Assembly (NCBI GenBank): GCA_030435675.1
Contig: CM059624.1
Coordinates: 5,666,769-5,730,768 of the forward strand
Length of the DNA: 64,000 bases
Source of the DNA: Steinernema hermaphroditum
Lineage: Eukaryota > Nematoda > Chromadorea > Rhabditida > Steinernematidae
Direction: 5' to 3'
Position 1 is the stretch's first letter, and the number at the start of each line of letters is the position of its first letter. The translations under genes were made by a program, and so were the position numbers. Shown here piece after piece: positions 2,787-26,300 of the stretch. The notes below the pieces were generated by a model that saw only the letters and a list, made by a program, of their open reading frames with translations, did not search any database and was not told where the DNA came from.

Positions 2787-2927
2787 AAAATTGGCGCACT
2801 TCGTCCGATTCAGATCCGGCGAGTTGGACGGCCAAATGTCTTTGGTCCTCCTCACGCCTTGCGAGACGTCATATATATGCACAAGAAACACATTGTCACT
2901 CCGTAGTCGCCGGTTTTCTTCTGGCTC
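2787..2927 (-). mobile_element. mariner fragment (duplicate of 1787-1922)
   Basis: About 135 bp that is nearly identical to 1787-1922. It includes the GCCTTGCGAGACGTCATAT motif and the minus-strand coding for DVSQGVRRTKDIWPSNSPDL. It sits inside the interrupted Merlin gene, directly 5' of the RTE fragment, so it may have moved with it or arrived first. Confidence 0.7.
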
Positions 2928-2928
2928 C

Positions 2929-3970: not shown

Positions 3971-4692
3971 TCGTCAGAATTTTCGTCCCCGTCAGAATCC
4001 TGGGGGCGTTGCACAGGGACTAGTAAGTCACTCTCGTCAAGACCGAAAGAATTTAGGGTTTTGAATGAGTTTTCGTATTCCATCATCGTCCGCATCTCGA
4101 CAAGGAGGTGCTCGAAAATTCGCTGTCTCTCAAAATAGCGACGAAAAGCGTACTCATAGAGGTGGGAGGCAAATTTTTCTTTAGATGTCCCCCGCAGGTG
4201 ACGCATGTCTGATTTTATAGCACCCCAAGTGGCTTCTATCCCCTGTATGTGGACTGTCCTATCCTTTGGGTTTACAAAATTTATCCGATGGTTAACCCAT
4301 CGGCGTTCGTATTCCATCTCCAGCTCCTCTATTTTCCCATAAGCAGCCCAACCGTCCGATGTGACGATGGTTCCACGCGCACAGTTATCTCGAATTATTG
4401 GCAGAAGCGTGCCCGCTGTTCTATCGCGCACCTCAAAAAGGCGAACCTCGCCAGTGCTTCGGTCTGACAAACCGAACACCCAGCCCGACTCTTTTCCAAG
4501 TTTCCGGCCTCTATGGTGCTTAGGCTTATAGAAGTACGATTCGTCGATTTCGACGACAACTCCCTCCCCCCCTAGTTGGTGATCGTATGACTGGCGCATT
4601 GCCCAATCACGGCAAACCCACCTGAACTTATTATAAAATTCAACCAGTGTTGAAAGCGCCTGGCGGGGGTCAACGTCACTGTCGACTCCAAA

Positions 4693-5055
4693 GTGGAGGC
4701 CGACACCGCCACTGATGTCGCCGCAGACATCAGTGGCGGTTCGTACCGCCATGGGGGCACTCGCCATGGTGGGAACCGCCACGGAGGCATGCGTCATGGC
4801 GGCATGCGCCATGGTGGCGTCCACGGAGGGCGCATCACGGGTGGAAACAACCACCTGAACCAAAACCTCTCCATCCCCGTGGTCGTCCACGTCTACGCCC
4901 CACCGCCCGCAACGCCCCGGAGACGCCAGAGAAAGAAGCCCAGCTCCGAAGAGGGCTCCGAAGAAAGCTCTGACGAGCTCGACGAAGAGCCTGACGAGGA
5001 ACCCGAAGAGGAGCCCGAAGAGGAGTCCGAAGAGGAGTCCGAGGAAGATGATTAA
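4693..5055 (+). other. Open frame with Gly-His repeats and acidic tail
   Basis: A 120-codon frame encodes tandem (R/M)HGG units, a proline-rich linker, then an S/D/E-only tail of about 35 residues before a TAA at 5053. The same DNA is open on the minus strand as hydrophobic repeats (LLFGLLFG) fused to the Merlin frame, so at least one reading is a by-product of repetitive composition. The acidic tail with a clean stop looks more protein-like than the minus reading. No family recognised. Confidence 0.25.
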
Positions 5056-5104
5056 TATTCTGTTGTTCATTATGTTATTGGTTATATGTTATTGATAAAA
5101 TGCT

Positions 5105-5986: not shown

Positions 5987-8346
5987 GTGAGTCCACCGAC
6001 CAGTCCACCGATCAAGATGGATCCACCACATTCACCGCATCGCCTACAGGGACCACTGTTTGAAGCACTTCGTCGCGCCGAGGAGATGCTGCAGCAGGGT
6101 TTCTTTCTCTACTCGGAGGCCGAATTGCCGCGTCGCTCTATAAACGAGGAGTCCGCCCAGCAGTTCATCAGAGCACTTGAGCGATGGCCGTCCAACATCT
6201 TTTTCAAAGATCTCGTTGAAAACCGCCGCTCCGTTGACCGCCGCTCCGATGACCGCCGCTCCGATGACCGCCGCTCCGATGATCGCCGCTCCGATGACCG
6301 CCGCTCCGATGACCGCCGCTCCGATGACCGCCGCTCCCACGACCGCCGCTCCCACGACCGCCGCTCCGATGATCGCCGCTCCCACGACCGCCGCTCCCAC
6401 GACCGCCGCTCCGATGACCGCCGCTCCCACGACCGCCGCTCCGATGACCGCCGCTCCCACGACCGCCGCTCCGATGACCGCCGCTCCCACGACCGCCGCT
6501 CCGATGACCGCCGCTCCCACGACCGCCGCTCCCACGACCGCCGCTCCGATGATCGCCGCTCCGACGACCGCCGCTCCGATGACCGCCGCTCCCACGACCG
6601 CCGCTCCCACGACCGCCGCTCCGATGACCGCCGCTCCCACGACCGCCGCTCCGATGACCGCCGCTCCCACGACCGCCGCTCCGATGACCGCCGCTCCCAC
6701 GACCGCCGCTCCGATGACCGCCGCTCCCACGACCGCCGCTCCCACGACCGCCGCTCCGATGATCGCCGCTCCGACGACCGCCCCACCGCCGGCCGCCTCA
6801 GCATCGATCGCCCCAGCGCCGGCCGCCGCAGCCCCGACCACCACACAAGAGGATTTTTTTCAGCAGTTCATCAGAGCACTTGAGCGATGGCCGCCCAACA
6901 TCTTTTTCAAAGATCTCGTTGAAAACCGCCGCTCCGTTGACCGCCGCTCCGATGACCGCCGCTCCGTTGACCGCCGCTCCGATGACCGCCGCTCCGATGA
7001 CCGCCGCTCCGTTGACCGCCGCTCCGATGACCGCCGCTCCGATGACCGCCGCTCCGATGATCGCCGCTCCGATGACCGCCGCTCCGTTGACCGCCGCTCC
7101 GATGACCGCCGCTCCGTTGACCGCCGCTCCGATGACCGCCGCTCCGATGACCGCCGCTCCCACGACCGCCGCTCCGATGACCGCCGCTCCCACGACCGCC
7201 GCTCCGATGACCGCCGCTCCCACGACCGCCGCTCCGATGACCGCCGCTCCCACGACCGCCGCTCCCACGACCGCCGCTCCGATGATCGCCGCTCCGACGA
7301 CCGCCCCACCGCCGGCCGCCTCAGCATCGATCGCCCCAGCGCCGGCCGCCGCAGCCCCGACCACCACACAAGAGGATTTTTTTCAGCAGTTCATCAGAGC
7401 ACTTGAGCGATGGCCGCCCAACATCTTTTTCAAAGATCTCGTTGAAAACCGCCGCTCCGTTGACCGCCGCTCCGATGACCGCCGCTCCGTTGACCGCCGC
7501 TCCGATGACCGCCGCTCCGATGACCGCCGCTCCGTTGACCGCCGCTCCGATGACCGCCGCTCCGATGACCGCCGCTCCGATGATCGCCGCTCCGATGACC
7601 GCCGCTCCGATGACCACCGCTCCGATGACCGCCGCTCCCACGACCGCCGCTCCCACGACCGCCGCTCCGATGACCGCCGCTCCCACGACCGCCGCTCCGA
7701 TGACCGCCGCTCCCACGACCGCCGCTCCGATGACCGCCGCTCCCACGACCGCCGCTCCGATGACCGCCGCTCCCACGACCGCCGCTCCCACGACCGCCGC
7801 TCCCACGACCGCCGCTCCCACGACCGCCGCTCCCACGACCGCCGCTCCCACGACCGCCGCTCCGATGATCGCCGCTCCGACGACCGCCGCTCCGATGATC
7901 GCCGCTCCGACGACCGCCCCACCGCCGGCCGCCTCAGCATCGACCGCCCCACCGCCGGCCGCCTCAGCATCGACCGCCCCACCGCCGGCCGCCGCAGCAT
8001 CGACCGCCCCACCGCCGGCCGCCGCAGCATCGACCGCCCCACCGCCGGCCGCCGCAGCATCGACCGCCCCACCGCCGGCCGCCGCAGCATCGACCGCCCC
8101 ACCGCCGGCCGCCGCAGCATCGACCGCCCCACCGCCGGCCGCCGCTCCGACGATCGCCCCAGCGCCGGCCGCCGCAGCCCCGACCACCGCAGCGTTTCCT
8201 CCGGCAGCGGCTCCTCCAGCAGCAGCGACTCCCCATCTCATAGCAACGAGCCCTCCCGCAAGCGCCCTCGTAATCTTATCTACGAGAACTTCAACGATAT
8301 GGATATCACACAAGAGGATCCAAATGATGAAACATACAAACAATAG
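5987..8346 (+). CDS. Low-complexity Arg/Ser/Asp or Ala/Pro repeat protein, frame-flipping
   Basis: The 5' end encodes a non-repetitive start (MSPPTSPPIKMDPP, then EALRRAEEMLQQG and IRALERWPSNIFFKDL) that runs into DRRSD pentapeptides. The 3' end encodes a serine-rich, basic, acidic tail (SSGSGSSSSSDSP, KRPRNLIYENF, DITQEDPNDE) and stops at 8346. Between them lie three blocks that each begin with the IRALERW-FFKDL module. These modules start 703 and 523 bp apart, both 1 modulo 3, so each block is read one frame later. In every block two plus-strand frames are open, DRRSD and TAAP(M/T). No single frame joins N- and C-terminus: a frame change inside the repeats, splicing at the TTTTTTTCAG before blocks 2 and 3, or decay is needed. 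The coordinates span the locus rather than one frame. An AATAAA at 23051 would lie 16 nt after the stop without the Helitron array. Function unknown. Confidence 0.45.
6223..7918. repeat. 15-bp tandem repeat GACCGCCGCTCCGAT in three higher-order blocks
   Basis: Over 100 copies of a 15-bp unit with three main variants at the 3' end of the unit (CCGAT, CCCAC, CCGTT) and rarer GATGATCGC forms. The variants alternate in the same order in successive blocks, showing duplication of long segments. Block starts are marked by CAGCAGTTCATCAGAGC at 6158, 6861 and 7384. Blocks 2 and 3 are preceded by CACACAAGAGGATTTTTTT. Confidence 0.95.
7918..8150. repeat. 30-bp tandem repeat in the 3' part of the low-complexity gene
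   Basis: Seven to eight nearly identical 30-bp units containing ACCGCCGGCCGCCGCAGCAT then CGACCGCCCC. In the C-terminal frame they encode PTAGR(R/L)SIDR decapeptides; in the alternative frame Ala/Pro. Blocks 1 and 2 end with only one such unit, so this expansion is specific to block 3. Confidence 0.95.
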
Positions 8347-8348
8347 TA

Positions 8349-8696
8349 TCGACCGCCCCTATATAAAGCAGATGGGACGGGCGTGTCTGTCTGTCCGAAA
8401 CAAAATCAATCCGTTGACTTCGGTGTTAATGCCATCTTGTAGAGCTCATTGACCTCTATCAAATGCACCGGGTCTTTTCGCTGTCATCCTATACAAAATG
8501 GGCTAAGTGGCCATGTTTAAACACAGGAAATGTCACAGGTTCGTCCCTTCCAGAATGTTCTCGAAACTTCTCGAAACTTCTGGAAAATGAATCGTGGTAA
8601 GACCCAAAAATTTTGGAAATGTCACATGTTCGGACAAATGTCCTTATGAGACTAAAAATTTTTGGAAATGTCATAGGTTCGGCCGACTGTCAGAAG
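8349..8696 (+). repeat. 348-bp Helitron 5' end, identical to 18196-18543
   Basis: The two segments match base for base over 348 bp, then diverge (AGTGTG against AGGGTG). They include TATATAAAGCAG and GACGGGCGTGTCTGTCTGTC near the tip. The duplication starts exactly at TC, marking the Helitron 5' terminus. Confidence 0.95.
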
Positions 8697-9174
8697 TGTG
8701 CCTAAAATGAAGCCTATGATGTATTAAGTTGTACTAACATGTTAGTCGTGGTAAGGTAAACATTTTAAGAGATGTCATATGTTCAGACAAAAGCCAGAAA
8801 TGTTCAATAATCATGCCTATGATGTATTCCTTTGAAAATTAGCATTTGTTCGGTCAAGATCAATACGTAACAAATGTGATATACTCGGAAACCTCTGTGA
8901 CCATGAAAAATAAAAGCTTTCACCTCCTAAGTGAATACTCAAGTTTAAGACCTTTTCAAAATAGAGAGGAGCATTTCAAGATGCTTGTAATAGAACTTGC
9001 GCCGTCGAAATCATTTGTAACGTTCGATTTCAACATAACAGCGGGTCTCGAAGCGAAAGTCTGAAGTGCGCTGTGCTAAGCGTTAGTCATACCCGCAAGT
9101 CGACGATGGGAAGATCGCACCGTTGCGACAAAACAGTCACAATTGGCAGATAGTCTGCGGCGATTGCGGCACTT
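8697..9174. other. Helitron A subterminal region without a gene
   Basis: AT-rich sequence holding one further 104-bp iteron copy (GTCATATGTTC at 8774, exactly 104 bp after the one at 8670). A 72-codon open frame at 8846-9064 shows no family resemblance and is probably chance. Confidence 0.5.
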
Positions 9175-9196
9175 GGTTCAATTACCCAAGTTTGGG
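9175..9196 (+). other. SL1-like 22-nt sequence followed by GT
   Basis: These 22 nt match the canonical nematode SL1 spliced leader at 20 positions, differing at position 4 (C for T) and position 21 (G for A). As in an SL RNA gene the next bases are a GT donor (GTAA at 9197). No downstream Sm site or SL RNA stem-loops are evident; instead a TCTTTGCAG acceptor-like site follows at 9212-9220. It may be a captured SL RNA or trans-spliced cDNA end, or an element-encoded leader. The match is far better than chance for a window this size. Confidence 0.6.
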
Positions 9197-9225
9197 GTAA
9201 AAAAAAATTGTCTTTGCAGAACTTG

Positions 9226-9512
9226 ATTGGCGTCGACTTCGAGGATTGGCGTCGACTTCGAGGATTGGCGTCGACTTCGAGGATTGGCGTCGACTTCGAG
9301 GATTGGCGTCGACTTCGAGGATTGGCGTCGACTTCGAGGATTGGCGTCGACTTCGAGGATTGGCGTCAGCTTCGGGGATCGGTGTCTGCTTCGGGGATCG
9401 GAGTCTGCTTCGGGGATCGGCGTCTGCTTCGGGGATCGGCGTCTGCTTCGGGGACCGGCGTCTGCTTCGGGGATCGGCGTCTGCTTCGGGGATCGGCGTC
9501 TGCTTCGAGGGT
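9226..9512. repeat. 19-bp minisatellite inside Helitron A
   Basis: About 15 tandem copies of GATTGGCGTCGACTTCGAG. The first seven or so carry CGACTTCGAGGATT and the later ones TGCTTCGGGGATC, with one ACC variant. Because 19 is not divisible by three and the unit lacks stops, all plus frames and some minus frames stay open over the array. These open frames are artefacts. Confidence 0.95.
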
Positions 9513-9631
9513 CAATGAAATTTCGTAGATAAAATTTTGATTCACCGCGGTGGTTCTCGCGCTTTCGTGACTCACAATCGCGTTTATTGTTGTATCGTTT
9601 GCAAATATCGTTTGCTTTCAGAATCAGAAAC

Positions 9632-11323
9632 ATGCACTCAAAACGTCGACAGAGCCAGGAGCAGAAAAGTGGTGAAGTGCCACAGAAGAAACTGAAGTCT
9701 CAGAGCAGCATGGAACAAGAAAGCACGACCGAGAATGCTGCAGATGAAGCTCAGGAATTGCTGTTGCAGAACATTGAGCCTGCCACCGAGAGTGCAGCTG
9801 ATCTGGACACCAGGTAAGCGTGTGAATCTCGGTTTCTATTAAGCATTTACGTTACAGTGCACTTCGCGAAAAACTTTCCAGTTTCAAGAATATTGATGAG
9901 AAGTCACCATCCAGGTAAGCGACAATAAATGACTGCTCATTTTTAAAAGTAATTTTGTAGCACCGGCACCTTTGTTGTCATCAACGCTGTTTTCTACAAT
10001 CCTGGCGAAAAACCAGGCTTCTTCAATGACTTATGCGAATTAATAGCCATGGAGAAGGAGGAATCAATGCTGAAAATTGTGGCTTATGGCGGCGCTGCCA
10101 ATAAATGCAGAAACTTGAAATTGGGAGATGTAAGTGTATGCGCTGTTAGGAAATGTTGTCAACTATTCACCTCAGGTGATTCATCTCGATAAGTTCGGAT
10201 GCAAGCATGACGATTACGCTCATTTCTTTCGTAAGTCATGCCGAGTTGTCACTTTATACTACTTTAATGACGATATTACAGTTTCTAAATGTGCCTTTGA
10301 TCTTGTCATCGATGAAAAAACCGTACTTACAGTAATTCAAACTGAAAGTGCCCTCTGGAAGCATCACTTTGAACTCATGAAAAGCAATGTGATGTCATCA
10401 AGCTGGCTGGTCAAATATGGTGGATAGTATGAAACGTTCATTTTCCTTATTTAAAAGTGAATGAACCTTTTCAGCATAGCCACACTTCGCCTGGATCATA
10501 TAGTATTCCCTAAAGAAGTGACCTGTCGCGATCATCATAAGACCTACGTTGCGAGCTACATGTTCATGACGTCGGATGCGGAGTCTGTCCAGATCTCCTT
10601 TTATGACCATCAGCTTGACAAGTTGGCCGCATTGGAGAAAAATGAGGTATTATATAGATACTACAGAATGTATTTCGTATTTCTTGTCGTTTTACAGGTT
10701 TACGAAATCGAGAACTGCCATCTGAAGGAAAAACAAACTTCTGAATTCGCAAAGTTTCAATTTGCTGAACCTAAGAAAATTTTTCTAAAGAAGATGTCCG
10801 ATGACGATCAAATGGAACACCTATATGATATGGTTGTGCTCTCGGAGATTAACGTTGATCGTGACCCTTACCGCATTTACGGTTAGTTAACATTTACGGT
10901 TAGCACATATTTACTTTTATGCAGGAATGAAACTGCACATCCTGGAAAAGTTCACGAACAAGCCGAATGTCTGTGCTGTTCACAACACCCATACAGGTAG
11001 TTGCACATAATTCTCTGATAAACGTAATGTTCTTAAGGAATCGTAACTGATGGAACATTGACTGAATCCTTCCTAAATTGTGCTGTTTTGGACATAATTT
11101 CTATTCAGTTCGATGAATGCTGGAAGCAAGGCTTTGCTATTCAAGGCCTGTTTCAAGCATATACAGACGGTATGACTTATTACATGATCTGATTTGTATC
11201 GCTGTTCTTTAAGGTGTCTTGATTAAATTGCGTTGCGTTGCGCACATGATTACAACTATTCCGAGTGATATGCCCCGCTCCAACCATATTAAGGAGAGAC
11301 GTTTCAACCGCATTGAACACTAA
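9632..11323 (+). CDS. RPA-like OB-fold single-strand DNA-binding protein of Helitron A
   Basis: Ten exons join in frame: 9632-9813, 9858-9914, 9961-10129, 10176-10230, 10282-10426, 10475-10646, 10698-10881, 10925-10996, 11038-11169 and 11214-11323, giving about 425 aa. All introns are 40-51 nt with good donors and acceptors; the 51-nt one at 10231-10281 is a multiple of three and could be retained. The first 75 residues are charged and low complexity. Then two OB-fold-like segments follow: one from GTFVVINAVFYNP through LGDVIHLDKFGCK, the second from IATLRLDHIVF through VYEIENCHLKEK, in the style of RPA70. I infer binding of single-stranded DNA exposed during rolling-circle transposition. An acceptor-like GCTTTCAG at 9614-9621 lies 10 nt before the ATG, consistent with trans-splicing. 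Plant Helitrons often encode RPA; I cannot confirm a close relative by search. Confidence 0.7.
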
Positions 11324-11582
11324 GAGCAGGAAAGTTCAACAATAAGTGGTATTCGTCGTTTCACTCATCAGGCGCCATTTCATTGTTTTTACTTGTTGTT
11401 ACATATTGTTATTTGTAATATTTTTGTGTTGAAAAGCATTATTTGTTCCTTGATCTTAGTAGTGCCAGTTATTTTCCGTTTGAAACGGTTTACGAAATAT
11501 CTCTATGCTTTTGTCACTTTATTTATTATATGTCACCATTATAAGTAGCTTGAATTGTCACTTTCAGAAAACTTAATCAACT

Positions 11583-14500
11583 ATGTCTACGTCTGAAGGC
11601 GAATCGACTCCTTCAACGAGAACGAAACGAGTGCGATCTCTCCGAAAACGCCGAAGCGAGGTTGAAGTCGACCAAGAACGGGAAGAGCGTCGTCAAGCAA
11701 ATGCGCAGAAGAAACGCGAATACCAAGCGCGACAACGTGCAACGGAAACTGAAGAGCAAAGGCGCACACGCTTGGACAAGGACCGCGATCGCCATCGTCA
11801 AATGAGAGCCGAGAAGAAGAAGACGGCGTTCCATATCCAAGAACCGGAACATCTTCCTGACGTCTTCTACCTTGGAAAGCGGGATAAGAGGTGCACCTTC
11901 TGCGGAGCGCTCCACTTCGTCGGATTCCACAACTGCTGCCGGGAAGGAAGAATCTTCATCAACCCCATGAAGAAATTGTGGGAACCCCTGCAAAGTCTCT
12001 ACTTCAATGAAGATCATCCGAACCGCGGAGAGTTCCTGAACAAAATTCTTCAATACAACACTCTGCTGTCAATGGCGTCATCCCAGCATGACAGAGTCCT
12101 TCAAAATCCCTTCGGAGTACAATCGGTGAAGGTAATAACTATCGTTTGCCTATAGTAGTTATCTCTATGTATGTAGGTCCGCGGTTCAGTTCATCATATG
12201 CCGTCAACATTGTATCCGGAAAACCTTTCGCATCCGCGATACGGAAATGTCTACATTTACGATGTCAACAGAGCGACGGAATACCGCATGAACGAAATCA
12301 TCGCGAGGGACATCAATGAAGACATCCTTAAGGAACTTGGACAGCAGGTCGCTCTGTGCAATCCCTACGCGAGTGCATATAGACACATGAATGAACTCTT
12401 GCGACAACAGGCAGAAGCTGGCTATACGGTAAGTGCTTTCAATTGTCGAGTTGCAAAATGACGACTCTATTTGCAGCCATATAATCTTCGTATGAAATTA
12501 ATTGACGCAAAAGGCGTTAATCCACAAGAACTGATGAATCACCCTGGCGTTTATGACAGAGCACACTGCGGCAATATGATTGCTGTTTACTTCACGTGCG
12601 ACGCCGAAATGAACATCCCGCATCGAGGCCTGATTATTTACCCACGAAGATATAATCAAGATCCATTTGAAATTCGGTTCTGGCAGCCAATGATCGATGC
12701 CTTGTGCTATCCTCTCATTCACGCTTATGGAGAAGACTCATGGAGACCAAGTAGGTGCAGTTTATAGTACTGTTACTCAGTTGCTGTGCTTAGACATTCC
12801 ATATATCTCGTGTAGTGATGAAATGAACTACGTAGATCGGATGGTGCAAGTGAAAGACGCTCTGCTTCAACAAGGCATCGAAATCGATTGGACTATAGAA
12901 GTAGAAGAAATGGAACTCATTCCTCGCGGAATCGCAAGGGAAATTGCTGAGATTGAATCTCTCATGCATGTCGACGACGGAGGCAGCGATGAATCCGACG
13001 AAGAAGATTACCAAGTGCAGCAGATAGCATATCACAGCGACTCGGACGAGGATCCCGATGAAGACGAGCATGAGGTTTTCTTTGTTTACTACTCTCTAAT
13101 TCTATCGTTTTCTTGTTCAGATTCGAGATGAACACCGAAACGATGCTGTCAACAACGAAGAGTTGCAATTCGTCGAAAGAAACGGGGAGCTCTATCCTCA
13201 TCGTGACACTGTTCCAGTCGTTGAGCATGAACAGCGGCTTTTAGCGGACTACGTGGATGATAGTGGACGAGGTGGTATAATCCGACGAGGTATAATCCAA
13301 CATAACGAAGGTTTCGTAATTGTTTCTTGTAGAATCCGGGTGATCAAGAAGAACTTCTCCATCAGATTTCTCTACACCCTACAGCTGCACACGATACTGA
13401 CAATATCATAGAAGATGTGACCAACGAAGAAGACGATATGGTTTACGATGGACCATCATTAAATGAGCCTCTCGAAGACGCCACTCAATCGCGACACCCA
13501 CGCCCGAAGAAGGCAAGTGGCTTTGACTTAACATCGTGCTCATTTAAATCTTTTAGAGAGGACAACAAGTATCCTATCGTGAGTGGTTGCTGTTCAACGC
13601 TCAATACCGCAAAGGTTGGAATAACCGCATAACTACATCAAGAAAACTGGGTCAGCTATATGTAATCGACCACTTTATGCGAATTACACGTCAAAGAGGC
13701 GAAAACATCAGAAGAAACAACACACAAACCACGATCACAAACAAGTAAGCGCAAACTGTCGATCGAATTGTCAATTTGACACTTTCAGGAAACGATTCTT
13801 GGAATTCATGAATGATGTCGCCCGAAGAAGAGGTCGGACAGTGGGAGCTCTCACTTATGTCCCCCATTACATCAGAGGCTCGCCGCGCTACCTCCGGGAA
13901 CAGTTTGAAAAAGCAGTGACGTTGTCAAACAAGCTGGGTAAACCCGATCTCTTTATCACATTCACTGCGTCCTCACGTTGGCAAGAGATCAAGGTATCGC
14001 TGATGTGTTACATGACTGTTCTATAAATTTACATTAAGGAGAATATTCCACCTGGCGAAACATGGGCAGATCATCCGTTTTTGGTTGCTGAGATCTTCAA
14101 AAAGAAGTTGCATGAATTTTTGAAAGATGTATGTGGAACATGGAAAAAAGAGACACCAAAACAGAAGGCAGAGAGAATAGCAGCGAAAAAGCACAAGGTT
14201 CTGAGAGGAGGTAATGAACGTCATTGTATGAATATTTTCACTTGCTTCGCTGTTTAGGCATGTTTGGAGATGTAGCGTGGTATGTCTACTCTGTAGAATT
14301 CCAACAGCGAGGCATGCCTCATGCGCATATCGTCATAAGTCTCGCCGGAGACGCCAAGACGAAAGTAGCGCAGAAAATCGACGAAATATGCCAAGCGGAA
14401 CTTCCTGTTCTACCATCCGAAGGTGATCCGGAATACAGACGGTATGAACACGGAATTATCGCGTCATTGCGAAAACATTGTTTAGGATCAAAAGACTACG

Positions 14501-17500
14501 AGATATAGTCGAAGAACTAATGATGCACTCTCCATGCGAGAATAACAACACAGCCTATTGTCGCCAGCACACGAAACGCCACTGGAGAACATGCAGCAAA
14601 CGTTTCCCCAAACCGTTCCGCAATTTTTCCTCGCTACTCGAAGACGACTACGCGCTACTGAGAAGACCAGATAATGGTGAATGTTCAAGGTAAGTCCTAT
14701 GTTCATCATCACCAATACAATGTACAATTTCAGTCGAAATCCACTCGCAACAAACCAGTACGTGGTTGCTTATAACAAGAAGCTTTTACTGAAGTACGAG
14801 GCTCATATCAATGTCGAGATAATTTCGAATTTACATGTTTTAAAGTACTTGTTCAAATATCTCTTCAAAGGTTATCTTTAGTTTCCAATATACATCACTA
14901 AGACTATGTTTTTAGGTTTCAATCGAGCTCTCATTGAAACTGTAGAGCGTACAGCGGTAGACAACGGCTCACCGATTGGTGGTATCGGCTCGATGACGTT
15001 CACAAACAACATCATCTACCCAAAGGGAATCAAGCTTCCCAGAGCTGTCCTAATGGAACGCAACAAAGCTGCGCAGAAGCTTCTGATGGAGACCATGAAC
15101 ACAACGTAAGCTTCAACTGTAGAACACTGCACATACCGCTTCTTTTAGTGTCGACGCCAATAACCAAGATATTTTGGTCTACGACGAAGTCAGCATGATC
15201 GAAGACATGCGGGCGGCTACGAGCTGTGAAGCAGCGTGGGAAGTTAGCGCCTACGGCACCAATGGAAGCAGCCACAGCGTTTTCACTACCTACATCCATG
15301 CTCCTGACGAAGAAACAGTGATTGTTCCAACTGGTAAAATATCTCTATTCTTCATATACAGTACTCCTGATTCCAGGACACGAAGAAGAAGTGCTGCACC
15401 GCATTGAGCAACAGGAAAATGAACTGCCATCAATGCTCAAGGCCTGGTTCAAGATCAACTCACATCCACCTGCGGGCACCGAAGATATACTCCGAGATCT
15501 CACATTTTGTGACATGCCAAAGTACTTCAAATACCAGAACAAGAAGTGGGTCAAGAAAGCCAGACCAAGTGAAGAGCATGTAATAGGCCGCATCAAAAGT
15601 AATCCGCATTCTTTATTTCGATTCAGCTACGTTGAATTTAGGTGTTCATCCGAGGTACATGGAGAAGTTCGCGATTCGCCTATTGGCGATGAACCGAAAA
15701 TTCATGAAAAGTTTCGAAGATCTTCGCACAGTTGATGGAATCTACTACGACACATTCGTCGATGCAGCAAAAGTAACTTTTCTTTGCCATCATTTATACT
15801 AATGTACCAATTTAGCAACTGGGACTGATGACAAACGAAATGGAGTGGCAGTTTGCCATGCAAGAAGCATGCGACACAGAAGATCCGATCAACATCCGAC
15901 GACTCTTCGCCTCTATCTTAATCTTCTGCGTTCCTGCCAATCCCAGGCAGCTTTGGGATCAGTTTAAGGTAAATTTTATGATATTTTTCTCTTGTAAACA
16001 TGTGTTCTTCAGATCGACATGTATGATCGCAGAGGATCGTCAGATGAACAGAAAGAAGCGCGAGCCCTGTTCCACATCCGGTCCATATTGCTTCACCACA
16101 ACCGCGAACTGGTTGATTTCGATCTGCCTGGTAATTCATTAAGCTTACGATTAACCTTTCTATGAGTGATGTAGATATCAACGAATCTCAGCTGGGAAAC
16201 CTGGATGAGTTGAACGACGACGGAAGTGATCCGTTCCTCACTTCGGCGCAGATTCGTGAGAGAGCAAAGGATCATGAATCGGTAAGCTAACCCAGGTCAT
16301 ATGGATGATTAAGAAATCAGTTTAGAAGCTTAACGATGAGCAGAAGGATGTTTTCAACGCTATATTACGCGAGCGCTCTAACATCTATGGAAACAGACTT
16401 TTCTTCTTGAACGGATCCGGCGGATGCGGCAAAACGTTCCTGTATAGAGCTCTGTACTACGCTCTGAAAGCAAGTGGTCACAACGTGCTCTGCACTGCCC
16501 ATACGGGCGTTGCTGCAACCCTTCTGCCCAACGGAGCAACAGTTCACCGCTCATTTGGAATTCCCATCACGGCTGAAGAACAAATGGAAAGCCAAATCAG
16601 CTTGGAAACAACCAAAGGTAAGCTACTAAGAAAGTTACTGATTGCAAGTGCGCATTTCAGCCGAAGAACTCAGTAAGGTCGACGTCATCTTGTGGGACGA
16701 AGCCACAATGTCCGACAGAAGAGTCTACAACTGCGTCGATCGATTACTGAGGGCACTTCACGAAGAAAACTCGGAAGAACCATTTGGTGGAGTAATGATC
16801 ATCGCCGGAGGAGATTGGAAACAAACGCTTCCAATTGTCAAAGAGGTAACAAACAAATAAGATGATTCCCATGCTATATCTGCATTTACAGGTTCGCAAC
16901 GAAGGTGTCCTCTCATATACCTTAAAGAAGTCAACTCTTTGGCAGCGTTTTGTTCAATTTCACTTAAAAACGAATATGAGGGCGATCGACGATCCAGCCT
17001 ACGCTGATTTACTTCTGAAGATCGGACAAGGCGATGCCCAGCTCGACGAAGATCAAGTCGAAATTCCTCAGCAGACTTTAAAGAATACCGAAGACGAAGT
17101 ATGCTCTTTCAGTGAAAACATATTACTTGATTTTGATCTTTTAGGTGATCAACTTTGTGTTTCCTTACAATGAAGACTGGTCAAATCGCTCGATCCTCAC
17201 GGTTACAAACGAAAAGAGTCTTCAACTTTGCGAAATGGTATCTATCGCATCTTCAATGTGTGATTACAGTGGTTTTAAGGTTCTAAATAATCATCCTGGA
17301 GAGGCGAGAACATACGAATCTGTAGACAAGCCATATAAGGAGCGTTCGTTCATCTCAGTCGAGCCGGAGACCTACCATACGCTAACTCCGCCAGGTCTTC
17401 CACCTCATCGGCTTAGACTGAAGAAAGGATGCGAAGTGATGCTCCTGCGAAACCTCAACGTCAAGATTGGCCTCTGCAACGGAACGCGACTCAAAGTTCT

Positions 17501-17909
17501 TGAGATGAAGGATAATGTTAGAAAGTGTTCCTATTTACATCAAGCAAATCACTCATTTCAGCTGCTGATCTGCGCACCAGTCAACAGAACCGAAAGAATG
17601 CCAGAGAAGATCGCCATTCACCGAATACCGATGTCAAGTTCAGACCGACCAGAAGAAGAATTCGCATTCATTCGGCACCAATATCCTCTGCGCCTCAGCT
17701 ACAGCCTCACGATCAACAAGGCGCAGGGACAGTCGCTGGACAAAGTCGGACTGGTGCTGCCAACATCATGCTTCGCACACGGACAGCTCTACGTTGCTCT
17801 GAGCAGGGCCCACAAGCAAGTCGACATTGCCGTCACTCACTATCGGGTATCCGATGCATCGAAACGCTTCTTGCTCCACAACATCGTCTACAAAGATATC
17901 TTGCAGTAA
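11583..17909 (+). CDS. Helitron Rep/helicase (HUH nuclease plus Pif1-like helicase)
   Basis: Twenty-five exons (549 nt first exon to 12131; last 17562-17909) join in frame to about 1743 aa. Helitron features appear in the usual order: a Cys-rich segment (CTFCGALHFVGFHNCC, about 105-120), the Helitron-like N domain (REWLLFNAQYRKGWN), the Rep HUH motif in QQRGMPHAHIVI (about 763-774), the paired tyrosines in LKYLFKYLFKG (about 911-921), and a Pif1/RecD helicase with Walker A GSGGCGKT (about 1320), Walker B ILWDEA (about 1400), GGDWKQ and the C-terminal INKAQGQSLDKVG and LYVALSRA. It nicks and unwinds the element for rolling-circle transposition. One intron starts with GC (13513), supported by continuity into RGQQVSYREW. 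The junction near 13311-13384 is ambiguous: the intervening sequence also reads as protein in another frame. The ATG follows a CTTTCAG acceptor at 11561-11567, 259 nt after the RPA-like stop, as in a two-gene operon. Confidence 0.9.
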
Positions 17910-18117
17910 TATACGGTTTCGTGATGCGTTACATCTGCCTTGCTCTTTTGTTCATGTTTTCCTTTTTAACTGATAAAAATTTTCTGTTAACTATAACTGT
18001 TTATCTTTGTTAGTTTACATGGCTAAGAAGCCGATCAAATATCGATTAAAAAATGAGTTTCAGATGGATCAAACTCAACAGATATTTAAATTACTTATCA
18101 TAACGAAAAGTTCATAA
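17910..18117. other. Helitron A 3' untranslated/subterminal region
   Basis: AT-rich sequence between the Rep/helicase stop and the shared 3' terminal 80 bp. No gene seen. Confidence 0.5.
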
Positions 18118-18516
18118 AAATATAAAACTTTGCAAATGCGTCTAAATTATTAAAATAACTTTGAAAAGAGGTTAAATCTCCGTGGGACAATCTAGTCGAC
18201 CGCCCCTATATAAAGCAGATGGGACGGGCGTGTCTGTCTGTCCGAAACAAAATCAATCCGTTGACTTCGGTGTTAATGCCATCTTGTAGAGCTCATTGAC
18301 CTCTATCAAATGCACCGGGTCTTTTCGCTGTCATCCTATACAAAATGGGCTAAGTGGCCATGTTTAAACACAGGAAATGTCACAGGTTCGTCCCTTCCAG
18401 AATGTTCTCGAAACTTCTCGAAACTTCTGGAAAATGAATCGTGGTAAGACCCAAAAATTTTGGAAATGTCACATGTTCGGACAAATGTCCTTATGAGACT
18501 AAAAATTTTTGGAAAT

Positions 18517-18960
18517 GTCATAGGTTCGGCCGACTGTCAGAAGGGTGCCTAATAAGCCTCTTTTGCCGTATTAATCTATGAAGACACGTTTGTCGTGGTG
18601 AGACCAAAAATTTAGGAAATGTCATACGTTCAGACAAGTGTTGAAAAAGTGCCTAAAACGAAACCTATGAAGTGTTAGACTACGCTCACATGTTCGTCGT
18701 TTCGAGACCAAAATTTTAGTAAATGTCATACGTTCAGACGACTGCCAGAAAAGTGCCTAAAATGAAGCCTATGAACTATTAACCTATGTAGACATGTTTG
18801 TCGTGGTGAGACCAAAATTTTAGTAAATGTCATACGTTCATGCAAGTGTTTGAAAAGTGCCTAAAACGCATCTTAAGAAGTGCTGAGTTGTGTCAGCACG
18901 TTAGCCGTAATGCGACAAACAAACTTGGAAATGTCACATGTTCAGACAAAAGTAAGCAAG
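18517..18960. repeat. 104-bp iteron series
   Basis: The motif GTCAYRYGTTCRG recurs at 18517, 18621, 18725, 18829 and 18933, each exactly 104 bp apart, within diverged units that also share TGCCTAAAA, CCTATGA and GTCGTGGTGAGACC. Irregular copies lie upstream at 18379 and 18468 inside the shared 5' end. Helitron A keeps two regular copies (8670 and 8774). Confidence 0.9.
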
Positions 18961-19071
18961 TGTCTCAAAGGGAAAGCACGCCCGACTTCCACATAAAAAG
19001 ATGTTAGCTCATCGAAACTTCAATTTTAAAAAAATATGTGCGACTTCATCCGAAGAATCTGTCTCCGTGAA

Positions 19072-21712
19072 GACCCTATGAGAGTGAGAGGAGAAAGCTG
19101 ACTTCTTTGAAGGTCTCAATGAAAACAAACCCCCGCACGACTCCAAAGATAGGAAGACTGCCTCCATAAAGACTCTATGAGAGCCACAGAACTTCGGTGA
19201 ATTCAGCTAAAGAAGTCAGCTTCTCCGAAGACCCTATGAGAGTGAGAGGAGAAAGCTGACTTCTTTGAAGGTCTCAATGAAAACAAAACCCGGCGCGACT
19301 CCAAAGATAGGAAGAATGCCTCCATAAAGACTCTATGAGAGCCACAGAACTTCGGTGAATTCAGCTAAAGAAGTCAGCTTCTCCGAAGACCCTATGAGAG
19401 TGAGAGGAGAAAGCTGACTTCTTTGAAGGTCTCAATGAAAACAAAACCCCGCGCGACTCCAAAGATAGGAAGACTGCCTCCATAAAGACCATATGAGAAC
19501 CACAGAACTTCCTGTGAATTCAGCTAAAGAAGTCAGCTTCTCTGAAGACCCTATGAGAGTGAGAGGAGAAAGCTGACTTCTTTGAAGGTCTCAATGAAAA
19601 CAAAACCCGGCGCGACTCCAAAGATAGGAAGAATGCCTCCATAAAGACTCTATGAGAGCCACAGAACTTCCTGTGAATTCAGCTAAAGAAGTCAGCTTCT
19701 CTGAAGACCCTATGAGAGTGAGAGGAGAAAGCTGACTTCTTTGAAGGTCTCAATGAAAACAAAACCCGGCGCGACTCCAAAGATAGGAAGAATGCCTCCA
19801 TAAAGACTCTATGAGAACCACAGAACTTCCTGTGAATTCAGCTAAAGAAGTCAGCTTCTCTGAAGACCCTATGAGAGTGAGAGGAGAAAGCTGACTTCTT
19901 TGAAGGTCTCAATGAAAACAAAACCCGGCGCGACTCCAAAGATAGGAAGAATGCCTCCATAAAGACTCTATGAGAGCCACAGAACTTCCTGTGAATTCAG
20001 CTAAAGAAGTCAGCTTCTCTGAAGACCCTATGAGAGTGAGAGGAGAAAGCTGACTTCTTTGAAGGTCTCAATGAAAACAAAACCCGGCGCGACTCCAAAG
20101 ATAGGAAGAATGCCTCCATAAAGACTCTATGAGAGCCACAGAACTTCCTGTGAATTCAGCTAAAGAAGTCAGCTTCTCTGAAGACCCTATGAGAGTGAGA
20201 GGAGAAAGCTGACTTCTTTGAAGGTCTCAATGAAAACAAAACCCGGCGCGACTCCAAAGATAGGAAGAATGCCTCCATAAAGACTCTATGAGAGCCACAG
20301 AACTTCGGTGAATTCAGCTAAAGAAGTCAGCTTCTCCGAAGACCCTATGAGAGTGAGAGGAGAAAGCTGACTTCTTTGAAGGTCTCAATGAAAACAAAAC
20401 CCCGCGCGACTCCAAAGATAGGAAGACTGCCTCCATAAAGACTCTATGAGAGCCACAGAACTTCCTGTGAATTCAGCTAAAGAAGTCAGCTTCTCTGAAG
20501 ACCCTATGAGAGTGAGAGGAGAAAGCTGACTTCTTTGAAGGTCTCAATGAAAACAAAACCCGGCGCGACTCCAAAGATAGGAAGAATGCCTCCATAAAGA
20601 CTCTATGAGAGCCACAGAACTTCCTGTGAATTCAGCTAAAGAAGTCAGCTTCTCTGAAGACCCTATGAGAGTGAGAGGAGAAAGCTGACTTCTTTGAAGG
20701 TCTCAATGAAAACAAAACCCGGCGCGACTCCAAAGATAGGAAGAATGCCTCCATAAAGACTCTATGAGAGCCACAGAACTTCCTGTGAATTCAGCTAAAG
20801 AAGTCAGCTTCTCTGAAGACCCTATGAGAGTGAGAGGAGAAAGCTGACTTCTTTGAAGGTCTCAATGAAAACAAAACCCGGCGCGACTCCAAAGATAGGA
20901 AAAATGCCTCCATAAAGACTCTATGAGAACCACAGAACTTCCTGTGAATTCAGCTAAAGAAGTCAGCTTCTCTGAAGACCCTATGAGAGTGAGAGGAGAA
21001 AGCTGACTTCTTTGAAGGTCTCAATGAAAACAAAACCCGGCGCGACTCCAAAGATAGGAAGAATGCCTCCATAAAGACTCTATGAGAGCCACAGAACTTC
21101 CTGTGAATTCAGCTAAAGAAGTCAGCTTCTCTGAAGACCCTATGAGAGTGAGAGGAGAAAGCTGACTTCTTTGAAGGTCTCAATGAAAACAAAACCCGGC
21201 GCGACTCCAAAGATAGGAAAAATGCCTCCATAAAGACTCTATGAGAACCACAGAACTTCCTGTGAATTCAGCTAAAGAAGTCAGCTTCTCTGAAGACCCT
21301 ATGAGAGTGAGAGGAGAAAGCTGACTTCTTTGAAGGTCTCAATGAAAACAAAACCCGGCGCGACTCCAAAGATAGGAAGAATGCCTCCATAAAGACTCTA
21401 TGAGATCCACAGAACTTCGGTGAATTCAGCTAAAGAAGTCAGCTTCTCTGAAGACCCTATGAGAGTGAGAGGAGAAAGCTGACTTCTTTGAAGGTCTCAA
21501 TGAAAACAAAACCCCGCGCGACTCCAAAGATAGGAAGACTGCCTCCATAAAGACCATATGAGAACCACAGAACTTCCTGTGAATTCAGCTAAAGAAGTCA
21601 GCTTCTCTGAAGACCCTATGAGAGTGAGAGGAGAAAGCTGACTTCTTTGAAGGTCTCAATGAAAACAAAACCCGGCGCGACTCCAAAGATAGGAAGACTG
21701 CCTCCATGAAGA
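19072..21712. repeat. 158/159-bp satellite array, 17 copies
   Basis: GACCCTATGAGAGTGAGAGG recurs at 19072, 19230, 19388, 19547, 19706, 19865, 20024, 20183, 20341, 20500, 20659, 20818, 20977, 21136, 21295, 21453 and 21612. The one-base length difference comes from TTCGGTGAATTC against TTCCTGTGAATTC. Units are nearly identical and differ by a few recurrent variants (CGGCGC or CGCGCG; AGAATG, AGACTG or AAAATG), implying recent homogenisation. Each unit holds a second, weaker GACTCTATGAGAGCC half, suggesting an ancestral half-length monomer. Shorter degenerate copies continue to about 21810. Confidence 0.97.
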
Positions 21713-22287
21713 TCCTATGAGAGTTAGAGACTTCCAGAATCTGCCTTGGTGAAGACCCTATGAGAGTCAGAGACTTCCAGAATCTGCCTTGGTGAAGATC
21801 CTATGAGAACTCTAAATATAACAAACCGTTAATATGAAGACATATAGGAGAAATGAGCTGCTCTGAAGGCACCTATTTAACAGATAAAATCTGTATTTAG
21901 TTCCAACTCCCTCTAAAGAATCTGAATCGTTTAATGTGAATAGTAAAATCCTTTTAAAAACAAGTTATTCCCCAATTCAAAAAATATAAAACTTTGCAAA
22001 TGTGTCTAAATTATTAAAATAACTTTGAAAAGAGGTTAAATCTCCGTGGGACAATCTAGTCAGTACTAAATAAAGCTAAGGAGACGGGTGCTCTGTCCGT
22101 CCGCAAAAATTCTGTGTGTGGTCCACTCGCGGTATTTTGAATTGTTCTGTTGGTCCCACCACGATCTGTTTTTCTTTTTTGTTTCGCGTGTTCGCGGAGC
22201 GGTCTACTCGCGCAGGGCTTTCGAAAATTGTTATCGCGTTAATTTGTGTGTGGTAGCTTCGCGGTGCGTTCCCTGCGTGAAGGAGGT

Positions 22288-22597
22288 ATGCATCAATCGC
22301 GTTCATTTCAGAAAACAACTGACAACAGGGCTGCTATCAAGAATGCCGATTTGGCGGACAAAATGCGACAGGAAGCAGTCGAATGCCACTCAACCGCTGG
22401 GGAAGTAAGCCTTTCTCTCGCGGAATTGTGTTATCTGATTGCTTATTCAGGTACAACCCGAGATGGACATCGCAGCGTACATCAAGAAGGAATTTGACGA
22501 GAAGTTCGGACCCACGCCGCACTGTATTGACGGACGCGATTTGGGATCATACGTCACCCTTGAGAGGAAGCACTTCGTCTTTGTTGTCTTTAGATAA
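22288..22597 (+). CDS. LC8-type dynein light chain copy, C-terminally truncated
   Basis: Two exons (22288-22404, 22451-22597) with a 46-nt intron encode 87 aa. After a diverged N-terminus the sequence follows LC8: [18 protein letters not shown], then [30 protein letters not shown] and [10 protein letters not shown]8 is a small dimeric hub that binds short peptides and is a subunit of cytoplasmic dynein. Two oddities: the family's near-invariant TWHC is TPHC, and the final strand (GQVAILLF region) is missing because the frame ends FRTAA-like in another context, here a TAA shortly after KHFVFV. It lies wholly inside Helitron C and keeps a normal nematode intron, so it was taken up as DNA rather than by retroposition. 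It may be a non-functional passenger. A later open segment (EKRLRPEEEL, about 22650-22700) may come from another source. Confidence 0.75.
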
Positions 22598-23013
22598 GTT
22601 TTCCTTTTTAGAACGTTTCTTCGTTCGCTTATTTATGTGTTTAGGACCGGCGAGAAGCGACTGCGGCCAGAAGAAGAGCTTAATGCTGTTAACAATTGAG
22701 TTGTTGTTGTTGTCTTCATGTAATTAGGTGCTGTTATTGAATTCTGAATTTCGTTTTGATTTGCCTGTTAGCCTCGGTGTGATACCGACGAGAATCACCG
22801 ACAGCGTACAAACTAATTGCAAACGTGATTTGCGATGAATTAGCATGATTGTAACACAGGAAAACACAACAACATTCTTTGTCACAAGATAAAGAACAAA
22901 AAAGTAAGGGGAGCATGAGCTGCACCTCGCCGTGGTGCTTCCCGGGCAACGTTGTAAACATTTACAGCGGCAAAGCCAGCTCAAATAAATAGTATCGTTT
23001 ACTCAAAAATAGT

Positions 23014-23044
23014 GACGGCGCGCATCGCGCGCGCGGCAAGCTGG
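23014..23044 (+). other. Helitron C 3' terminal hairpin and CTGG
   Basis: A GCGCGC/GCGCGC inverted repeat with a 3-nt loop precedes CTGG by 8 nt; the next base is host T. This structure is the transposition terminator of Helitrons. Confidence 0.75.
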
Positions 23045-23050
23045 TGGATA

Positions 23051-23056
23051 AATAAA
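23051..23056 (+). terminator. AATAAA displaced from the low-complexity gene
   Basis: An AATAAA lies six bases beyond the Helitron array. With the array removed it would fall 16 nt after the TAG stop at 8344-8346, the expected range for a nematode polyadenylation signal. Inference. Confidence 0.45.
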
Positions 23057-23366
23057 ACAGCTCGTGTTTTGTGTATCGCTATATTGCTGTAAAACTACGA
23101 ATGCTTCCACAATTCAAAAGTCAAACTGATCCACATAAGGCACGCAAGAATGGTGGTGGTCATAATCCCTCCCACACGAGACTCATAGGAAGAACGACAT
23201 AAAGTGAAAGATTCTCGCGCCCTCTTAACACATAATTGTGAAGTCGTGCCTGAAATCAATCAAATCTTCTTTATCCACATCAAATATAATAAGGGAGTTA
23301 ATGTGTATCAACAATTGATCTCATTAAAAACGTATAGTCACAAAGACGCTGAAACAACTTTGACCC
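23057..23366. other. 3' flank of RBM25
   Basis: AT-rich sequence downstream of the RBM25 stop (minus strand). No gene seen; it probably contains the RBM25 3' UTR. Confidence 0.4.
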
Positions 23367-26300
23367 TTATGAGTTCGACGATTTTGCAGGAATTCCTAGT
23401 CTCTTCGACTCGCTCTCGTAGATCAGAAGTCGCCACATCTTTACAACGAATATTTCTGCTTCCTCATCGAGGACCTAAAGAAAACCAGTTCAGAGAAGTT
23501 GCGATGGATGCCCCACTCACCATAGCAATGTCCCGTAGAAGTTTCTGAGGCGGACTCTGGCCGGAGACCTTTTCACAGACAAACTCGACGAGTGACTGCT
23601 CCTCCTCGCCGATGTACTCTAGGATCTTCTTCGAAACCCATGGCCGAATTCTGTTTTTCACAAGATCTTCATCCACGAAGGCCCATTCGATGGGATATGC
23701 GAAGAGATCGTCCTTCTGTGTCGGAATCCGCTCGATCAAGTCGCGGATCATCTTCTTTCTTTCTTCGGCTGTCATCGCCTGCATACGATCTTCTTGTGTG
23801 ATTTCGAATGGCTTCAGGGGCTTCTTCCGTGTCATGCCGACGATCTGATCGTCTTCGTCGTCGTCCACGCCGAAGACACCGTTCAGTCGTGCGCTGACAT
23901 TTGGTTTCGGAGCATTCGACGAAGGAACAACGGGAGGCGCAGCAGCGGTGCTCGGTTTGGAGAAATTGGCAGGTGCAGGCGACATGTTCTGATTTGGAGT
24001 ACCGTCGTTGTTGAGAGTGGCCCATCCACCGGTTTTCATCACGCCATCTGCCACTCTAGCATCATTCGAATTCGAAGCTGATCCACTCGGGGATGGGGAG
24101 CGTTCGCCGTTGGCTTCGGGAGCGATAGGAGGTTTCTGTCCGAGAGTAATGTGAGGATTGGGACTTCCGCTATCGGCGCGATGCTTCCGCATTGCCTCTT
24201 CTTCTTGCAGTTGATGTCTCTTCTTCGCCTCTTCGTCGATGTTTTCGATGTTTTTGTTCTCTTCTAGAATAGCTTTCTTGAGCTCTTCGATCTCTTCCTG
24301 TTCACGTTGACGGTCCTTGGCGTCCTGCTCGCGTTCACGTTCATAGAGCCGTTTTCTCGAATACAATGTAGATCCCTTGGCATTCATGCTAATAAACAAG
24401 TAATTAGCCGCAAATGCATGTAAGCTGAAGACATACTTGAAATATTTCTGGTCATCGCGATCATCATCGTAATCCTCAAGGAACTGCTTCAGTTTTTTGA
24501 TCTCTGACTGGCGCTGTTTCTGTTTATTTGCCTCGCCGACTTCATCCCTTTCGTAATGCTTTGCCATGCGACGCTCGCGAGATTCCCACTTCTTCAAACG
24601 AGCGAGGTAGGACTGCTCCTTCTCCTTCAGCTTCTTCTTCAGGGCTCTTCGCTCGCGAGCGTCATCGCTATCTTCGGACTCCTCGCGGTCACGGCTGTAA
24701 TGGATGTGCATGAATATTTCAGTTTTACGCACACGCATTGCGTGTGTATTGCCCACGTACCGCGATCGTGAATCACTCTTGCCCTTCTTGGCCGATTTGC
24801 GGGATGAAGTTGATGAGTCACGACTGCTACTGCGCGATCCGGACTCAGATCGGCGTCTCTTTCTGAAAATACCTCCATAGAGAACAACACCACAAATAGA
24901 GAGCTTACGATTTCTTGTCCTTGCTACGGGACCGTCGGTGCTTTCTGCGTTTGCTGTCAACCGAGCGGCTTCTGCTACGAGATCTCTTGCGACGGGAGGG
25001 TGAGTGATCCTGAAATAGCGAAGATATTATTTTGCACTTAACAAGGCGGAGCTGAATAGTGAATGCGCGCGACAAGTTTGTTACAGATTGTCGAAGACCA
25101 TCTTACAACAAGCCAAACATTCCAGGAAAGTGAATCCAGCTAAAGGCTACAATGCATGCACGGATAGATGCGAGAGAGGATTTACTTACGTACGTGTTCA
25201 CAAGTTATGCAGACCCAAAATCTCACATGTCCGCGACCTCTGAAAGAAAGATTATTGCTTATACCGCTAGTCGCACCATAACACTTGAAAGAGGAAGATG
25301 AGTGCAAGAACAGCAAAGCGAAGAAGCGACACACCATGCGGAAAGCAGCAGAAGCGTGAGATGAAATGTTAGTGTGTAACAACTGTCTTTGGTGGGATAA
25401 TCAGGATATACCGCTGTATTCCTTTTCTATTCTTTCCAGGTTTACTATCCTGTGATGGTGAACCCTAATGCAAGCAAAAAAGGCGTGGATGGACTTTAAC
25501 ACCAACACTTTTCGCAATACATACCACATAAACATTACAAAAGGATAAAGCGCAAGGCATGCAACAAGTTGTTTAGTTGACCCCGTGTTCTCAGAAAGAT
25601 GTTTACGTTGTAAACAACCCAACAAATGCAATCATATACCCCTTGATAATGTCAAACCTACCCTTCTCCAGGATCGCATAACACAGTGCTTTAACTGACG
25701 AAAACCAAAGGTTCGCAGCTTTCCTAAGAGAGATTGATGAAAAAGATCTCCTGTCGGTTACCTCCTCACGATCATCAAGCAAGCAACGAAATTAATACCC
25801 GAATCTACCCACGTCCCCATAATGACAAGAAACCAAACTAACACGATTACCTTTCGCTTGGACGATGTGGAGTCCTTATCCTTATCGTCGTCCTACAAAT
25901 AGATCAGTTATAATCACACAGTGCAGCGCTCCCTAACCTTGTCTGGAAGTTCGCCATCATCCATGTCCTCGAGAAGATCTGGCTGCGAACTTTCAATCAA
26001 CTTGGTGATGCGCTCCTTGACGACATCATCGTCTTTCACGATGTCCTCGTCGACTGGGAGATCGTCTCCAAAATGGTCAACGGAGAGACCTTTTGCTTCC
26101 CGACGTTTCACCAGAAACTCGCGGATTAATGCCTTTGTTTTATCTTCAACCTGCAATCACATAATCAATGATATATCCAATGATGCTTCTGACAAACCTT
26201 AACGACCAGCTTTTTATTTCCCAGCTGAAAGTCGTTTAACACTCGCAAGGCACGCAACGTACCATCGGGGTGATCAAATTCACAAAAGCCGAAGGCTTGC

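Follow-up and report, generated by a model that had tools for sequence, protein, structure and literature searches.

Positions 8349-23044 of the 64,000-nucleotide stretch of Steinernema hermaphroditum DNA analysed here (the window) are occupied by three Helitrons, A, B and C, which directly abut one another with zero bases between them (Table 1; junctions and flanks were read directly, bounds were set by script); the array lies on contig C4 of the genome. With a slash marking the junction, A meets B at ...GGGACAATCTAG/TCGACCGCCCCT... (18195/18196) and B meets C at ...GGGACAATCTAG/TCAGTACTAAAT... (22059/22060), C terminates in ...GCGGCAAGCTGG at 23044 with T as the next base, and the base preceding A (8348) is A. 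The initial annotation had described three Helitrons joined without a spare base between a host A and a host T, and this description, coordinates included, was borne out by the junctions and flanks. It had further held that A and B have common termini and that C is related to them only at its 5' tip. Consistent with this, A and B match at 93.7% over 442 bp of the 5' end and at 97.6% over 84 bp of the 3' end, with diverged repeats also common to their 5' parts; C gave zero BLASTN matches to A and B at E 1e-5, and its tip resembles the A/B tip at the level of motifs only.

Table 1. Features of the Helitron array and its borders (window coordinates)
Feature	Position	Strand	Basis
A: hairpin-less Helitron with Rep and helicase regions, 9847 bp, TC...CTAG	8349..18195	+	termini common to other copies; domains
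Rep (Helitron_like_N, PF14214) region of A, at least 2 open pieces	13625..14505	+	E 7.7e-15, 1.9e-10
PIF1-type helicase region of A	16326..17909	+	PF05970 E 3.7e-25, 7.8e-18; PF21530 E 5.2e-19; pieces
A 3' terminal 85 bp, common to B, ends CTAG, no stable hairpin	18111..18195	+	97.6% to B
B: same family as A, without Rep region, 3864 bp, TC...CTAG	18196..22059	+	sequence comparison
159-bp tandem repeat inside B, ~16.7 copies	19068..21723	+	Tandem Repeats Finder
C: small hairpin-bearing Helitron, other family, 985 bp, TC...CTGG; presumed resident	22060..23044	+	C-type ends elsewhere
C 3' hairpin, GCGCGC-rich palindrome, 6 nt before end	23013..23038	+	fold -12.2 kcal/mol
Host TA left of array; its A = left half of A/T target	8347..8348	+	sequence
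Host right flank, T then A+T-rich	23045..23060	+	sequence

The array begins 2 bases past the stop codon of a long low-complexity open frame at 6763-8346 (window 8344-8349), a region that is open on the opposite strand too. An open frame with a PWI domain (23464-25026, minus strand), which we take to be RBM25-like, lies ~420 bp to the right of the array. Elsewhere in the window, a reverse-transcriptase frame (2719-3933, plus strand) partly overlaps an ISXO2-like (IS1595) transposase frame (3841-5088, minus strand). Among the 40 of 180 candidates scored, the left flank of the array matched itself alone, and no empty site was found.

The Rep and PIF1-like helicase that mark the Helitron superfamily are both found in A, with PF14214 and PF05970/PF21530 on separate pieces, and its Rep region has an equal-scoring match at three further places in the genome. 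Insertion without target duplication was observed at three paralogous empty sites, which belong to a pair of an A-type element and a Helitron of a further family, E, elsewhere than in the window. The 5' TC and 3' CTRR of canonical Helitron1 elements are present in A and B (CTAG) and in C (CTGG). As described in the portion of the literature used here, canonical Helitron1 also has a 3' hairpin 10-12 nt from the end (PMC5148889). C has a hairpin, but A and B do not: the last 60 nt of A fold at -0.3 kcal/mol, and 195/200 and 193/200 shuffles of the A and B ends (-0.3 kcal/mol) fold at least as well. The fold of the C hairpin was equalled by 16/200 shuffles, and the palindrome is present at all seven other C 3' ends viewed. 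Nor does insertion at A/T with no further sequence need, as in Helitron1, describe A/B, for TC follows 26/27 ends of A/B and of a second hairpin-less family, D (below). Helitron2 and Helentron elements are marked by asymmetric terminal inverted repeats and by other 3' ends, Helentrons also by an endonuclease domain; A/B terminates in CTAG, and no endonuclease was found in ten scanned pieces of A, which make up a part of the gene. A/B is a Helitron by its protein and is not a canonical Helitron1. In the parts common to A, B has no Rep or helicase domains, and it consists largely of the 159-bp tandem repeat. Tandem amplification, or rolling-circle copying, was rejected as the origin of the A-B-C array on the ground that the three elements have different inner parts.

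Neighbours of A/B and D ends across the genome

The genome was searched with the first 205 bp of B (17 matches), with the last 120 bp of B (18 matches; decayed ends may be missed by this query) and with C (25 matches), and minus-strand loci were turned round. A complete CTAG is present in 16/18 of the A/B 3' matches, and TC follows immediately in 16/16. The neighbour is an A/B tip in five cases (L024, L025, L026, L028 and L031), a C-type tip in six (L018, L020, L022, L029, L032 and, by eye, L033) and an E tip in five (L019, L021, L023, L027 and L030); of the remaining two matches, L034 is decayed and L035 is cut off at a microsatellite. The CTAG-TC junctions of the initial annotation thus recur at every complete A/B 3' end, and the termini that it gave to B recur as well: copies sharing them start with TCGACC and finish with CTAG, and the refuting case named in that annotation, B copies with termini elsewhere, did not occur. 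At the other side, 15/17 A/B 5' matches reach the first base (L016 and L017 fall short and are excluded from 5' counts), where the sequence to the left is host DNA in eight, an A/B end in five and a D end in two. The base to the left is A in 7/8 host-flanked copies, the exception, L006, having T. Inspected by eye, this locus (L006/L023, C1:5.59 Mb) can be read as a resident E with its second base mutated to T, the newcomer having gone in one base farther along, ahead of the following TC.

A second array, at C3:2.174-2.193 Mb, contains, judged by ends, at least six elements (D-like, D, A/B, A/B, A-type and C-type). Assembly collapse is unlikely because CTAG/TC junctions are found beside varied neighbours on contigs C1-C4. 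Like junctions at 16 A/B and 11 D ends on several contigs, together with precise empty sites, leave an assembly artefact with next to no probability. The docking of A/B at the tip of another Helitron is the rule for this lineage and not a local curiosity.

The left flanks of eight A/B copies were searched for empty counterparts, and six paralogous stretches were fetched. Three of these (L092, L093 and L094) read GAGTATTA/TTTTCATTAG, the left flank passing straight into the flank right of E, where the occupied counterpart reads GAGTATTA-TCGACC...CTAG-TCCCC...GTTTA-TTTTCATTAG (A-type plus E). L095, which differs in minor ways, is a less exact empty site for C3:14.81 Mb; L096 and L097 were rejected, as they match mainly on the left, L096 with one 25-bp match to E. 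For D, L072 is the empty site of the copy at C5:14.01 Mb and reads GGGGCAA/TCCAACAATAAAG, with matches to 46 bp of the left edge (93.5%) and to 529 bp of the right side (96.4%). A further locus, L108, gave no usable empty site. The empty sites show that one A/T (or A/TC) site was filled without duplication, and they are silent on which element came first.

The D end, found to the left of L009 and L014, gave 11 matches, all with a terminal CTAG, and folds at -3.3 kcal/mol (60/200 shuffles as good). TC is next in 10/11, with TT at L069. The neighbours of D ends are A/B tips (two), D tips (three), the tip of a D copy with a Rep match (one) and other DNA (five). Helitron tips are thus only 6/11 of D neighbours, and landing of D exclusively at Helitron tips was rejected on account of the 5/11 sites in other DNA. 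Two of the latter sites, L062 and L069, are situated some 20 bp beyond repeats found as inverted pairs, L068 falls within a repeat, about 44 bp in, the sequence behind L070 has one 84% paralogue, and L064 matched itself alone among the candidates scored (40 of 627 and 40 of 102 in these flank searches, so that weaker relatives may be missed). A search with two D tips gave 12 matches. The D copy at L077 (C5:14019279, minus strand) opens with three successive TCGCCCCCA units, which looks like a duplication of the 5' tip; the copy at C3:3.36 Mb has a single TCGCCCCCA.

Relative age of docked elements and their neighbours

The last 84 bp of A/B copies and the starts of their neighbours were compared pairwise. 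Divergence is greater among the neighbours than among the A/B ends in 24/25 pairs (E-docked, 10/10; C-docked, 14/15), a comparison that may be biased by constraint on the end sequences, which would lower their divergence. The exception is the C-docked pair L020/L032, with 58/60 for the neighbours and 80/84 for the A/B ends. Over 120 bp, the E neighbours are more diverged in just 5/10 pairs, since past the last 84 bp the A-type ends depart from the B-type ends and since L021/L027 is even; four of the five non-conforming pairs involve L030, which has an A-type end, unlike B-type beyond 84 bp. At L019, L021 and L023, the A/B ends are identical over 120/120 positions, and their E neighbours match at 204/228, 210/226 and 198/228. 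The E neighbours are close to solo E at L019 (97.0%), L023 (95.6%) and L030 (98.6% over 210 aligned positions, with 40 gap columns), and those of L021 and L027 match each other at 216/228 and any of the ten solo E compared at about 90-91%. A shared history of the neighbours is possible for L020/L032 and for L021/L027.

Three A-type copies with the Rep match at the corresponding place are 99.4-99.7% identical to A over the last 1585 bp and about 92-95% identical over 1.2-1.5 kb of their 5' parts. Behind the four A-type copies lie B (in the case of A), one E and two C-types whose tips match at 43/59. Because the neighbours are more diverged, they were mostly present before A/B arrived, and this divergence, together with the differing neighbours, therefore indicates that most pairs were not inherited as pairs. 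The initial annotation had proposed repeated insertion at one A/T site, a reading now supported by docking across the genome and by the mostly greater divergence of the neighbours; its alternative for A-B, a single rolling-circle event with read-through, is not supported, since the inner parts differ and near-identical A-type copies have other neighbours. At this locus, C would be the oldest element and A the youngest.

These data also bear on composite movement, in which a transposase passes the hairpin-less CTAG and mobilises A/B together with what follows, so that pairs are inherited. Such movement does fit a pair that involves D: two junctions of a D' element with D (L065 and L067, on C3 at 10.98 Mb and on C1 at 4.63 Mb) share 3132 bp of identical sequence spanning the junction, with different DNA behind D, which is best read as a pair that moved as a unit, and some adjacency is thus inherited. 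The rather similar neighbours within L020/L032 and within L021/L027 would fit it as well. For A/B, however, composite movement as a general cause was rejected on neighbour divergence (24/25 pairs), and further against it are the A-type copies that are nearly identical at the 3' end with different neighbours and the C3 array, where the outer A/B tips are both 100% (rounded) identical to the B tip and the middle one is 82% identical. Overall, we consider composite movement unlikely as the explanation of the arrays.

Successive insertion and a joining of elements before insertion, with Rep linking two single-stranded intermediates head to tail and the product entering a plain A/T, are hard to tell apart at any single locus; the latter agrees with the empty sites and with the variety of partners. 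Against it stands the D copy found alone at an A/TC with an A+T box and a known empty site (L072), and the T to the left of A/B at L006 is better explained, in one case judged by eye, as entry into a mutated resident. Joining first is therefore quite improbable in our estimation, and we retain successive insertion.

The resident families C and E look like ordinary Helitrons. E ends consist of the GCGCGAATTCGCGC palindrome and ...GTTTA, then T, at 8/11 loci viewed and at L021, L027 and L030 (L082, L086 and L089, of the 11, and L023 were dropped, their 3' hairpin sequence being unmatched). A host A precedes three C-type 5' ends (L040, L048 and L052), and T follows eight C 3' ends. A precedes 211 of 223 exact E tips; the 12 with another base comprise four A/B dockings, L109, L110 and six E at other non-A sites. 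At L110 (C1:4640277), E lies inside A/B sequence (the left side is 100% identical to B over 91 bp), and E was therefore also active after that A/B copy had landed. These counts weigh on the reverse order, by which C and E came later, at G/T beside A/B 3' ends. E does occur after G or T at other places, and maize lines with the left Helitron only of an adjacent pair, as given in the part of that report drawn on here, leave the order open (PMC2267711). Yet the reverse order requires that all complete A/B 3' ends were struck (16/16), and it is at odds with the A before nearly all exact E tips and with neighbours that are mostly more diverged than A/B, so that it appears very improbable. The preferred order remains resident first, A/B second.

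Target sequence, Rep group and a model of docking

TC follows 26/27 A/B and D ends, compared with 3/19 C and E ends (nominal Fisher p 1.5e-8, for rows that are related and with Helitron tips beginning with TC anyway). A TATA-like box at positions 3-28, defined after the tips had been viewed, lies behind 14/16 A/B, 9/11 D, 3/8 C and 3/11 E ends (background, 3.3% of the 6,522 A/T sites in the window outside the array), and a plain run of six A or T bases behind 15/16, 10/11, 7/8 and 6/11, respectively (background, 24%). The five non-Helitron D sites, for which the outcome was not given in advance, have a TC start in 4/5 and the A+T box in 4/5, against 25.7% and 3.3% of the 6,522 background sites. 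A TGTCYG block at +34 to +56 is common to tips of A/B, C and D (8/9 tips examined, those within one family not being independent); E is without it, as are the non-Helitron D sites (0/5), and it occurs in 2.5% of background 80-mers. The motif alone was rejected as the cause of A/B targeting, since 16/16 is far beyond what ~70,000 A/TC sites with a box in the genome, against a few hundred Helitron tips, would give (~70,000 being estimated from A/T sites of the window, tip totals of 300-1000 being assumed and the 16 not being fully independent). A/B is found on 4/223 exact E tips and on 5/15 complete A/B tips, which fits recognition of cognate tips, and because it sits on just 4/223 of the former, the resident tip is a permissive, not an irresistible, landing site. 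Among themselves, the Rep domains of A, D and D' show 65-77% identity, against 21-39% with eight other Rep stretches, and in a Rep tree the three are grouped with a support of 1.0; the tree rests on short, partly intron-broken domains, and the eight others, chosen from 43 matches, apparently represent three other families.

We propose that a hairpin-less Helitron lineage docks at the A/TC of resident 5' tips, with Rep cutting there and inserting the newcomer, and we regard this as probable. The targets of the lineage would be A/TC sites followed by an A+T box, chiefly those at the 5' tips of Helitrons that the genome already contains. Its Rep would recognise the 5' terminal sequence of a resident and cut at A/TC, as it would when launching that resident, and the CTAG end of the incoming element would be joined to the resident TC. 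At the present locus, C would have entered first, between host A and T, B second, between host A and the TC of C, and A third, between host A and the TC of B; each insertion would create a new A/TC tip at the left, and arrays would extend leftward. A more tentative extension, and a doubtful one, is that the docking lineage is without a terminator of its own and that recognition of its 3' end requires the adjoining 5' tip of the next element. If so, the same A/TC tip would be both landing site and stop signal for the next round, and a docking element would thrive only next to other Helitrons, on whose start sites it would be parasitic.

The model has partial parallels in other HUH elements. IS608 (of the IS200/IS605 family) and IS91 likewise transpose by an HUH-type reaction without target duplication, and in these systems the target can match the element's own cutting site; they differ in being bacterial, and IS608 is without a helicase. 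Non-canonical Helitrons of Fusarium, as described in the portion of the report used here, include a copy that lies 2 bp upstream of the 5' end of another, Metarhizium provides one case of three Helitrons in tandem, and multiple 5' termini in Fusarium and relatives were attributed to self-insertion; unlike A/B, these have Helitron2-type ends with inverted repeats and are isolated cases (PMC5148889). The same source cites plant centromeric arrays with Helitrons in tandem order, but these are truncated and linked to a circular intermediate, and here the members differ (PMC5148889). According to the parts of a general account consulted, IS608 is site-specific, and the evidence cited for rolling-circle transposition includes tandem arrays and head-to-tail junctions from plants and bats (PMC5876387).

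Directly adjoining Helitrons are known. The portions of the maize report used here describe two adjacent unlike Helitrons, called the first such case in maize, which resemble our pairs in joining CTAG to TC without a base between, in their unlike contents and in an inner junction of G/T rather than A/T; its authors interpreted the pair as consecutive insertions, with the order unresolved, and in those portions, unlike here, it is not presented as the habit of a lineage (PMC2267711). A Drosophila paper, in the excerpt used, also mentions Helitrons directly adjoining one another in bat and maize (PMC4067079). Helibat and Helraiser of bats differ from A/B in having a 3' hairpin; in the sections drawn on, all but 46 of 1,751 new insertions are at AT, and adjacency is one of three named causes of 39 odd 3' ends among 395 copies (PMC4778049, PMC5876387). 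In the titles and abstract openings of the literature searched, no report of near-obligate docking by a Helitron lineage appeared, a weak negative. Adjacent Helitrons are known, in maize and bats, as occasional finds, and in the papers used here no lineage with a near-constant habit of this kind is described.

How Helitrons choose a target, cut it and stop are unsettled questions on which the docking lineage bears. If the model is correct, the lineage would provide natural evidence that a single act of Rep can serve both to choose the target and to recognise the start site, and targets would be predictable from tip sequences. It could explain some head-to-tail arrays of other genomes without concatemers, and the order of an array would be given, with the youngest element on the 5' side. 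The habit may extend beyond A/B and D: at L109 (C1:1874163, minus strand), CTAG/TC precedes an E tip and the left side is unlike both A/B and D ends, possibly a third docking family.
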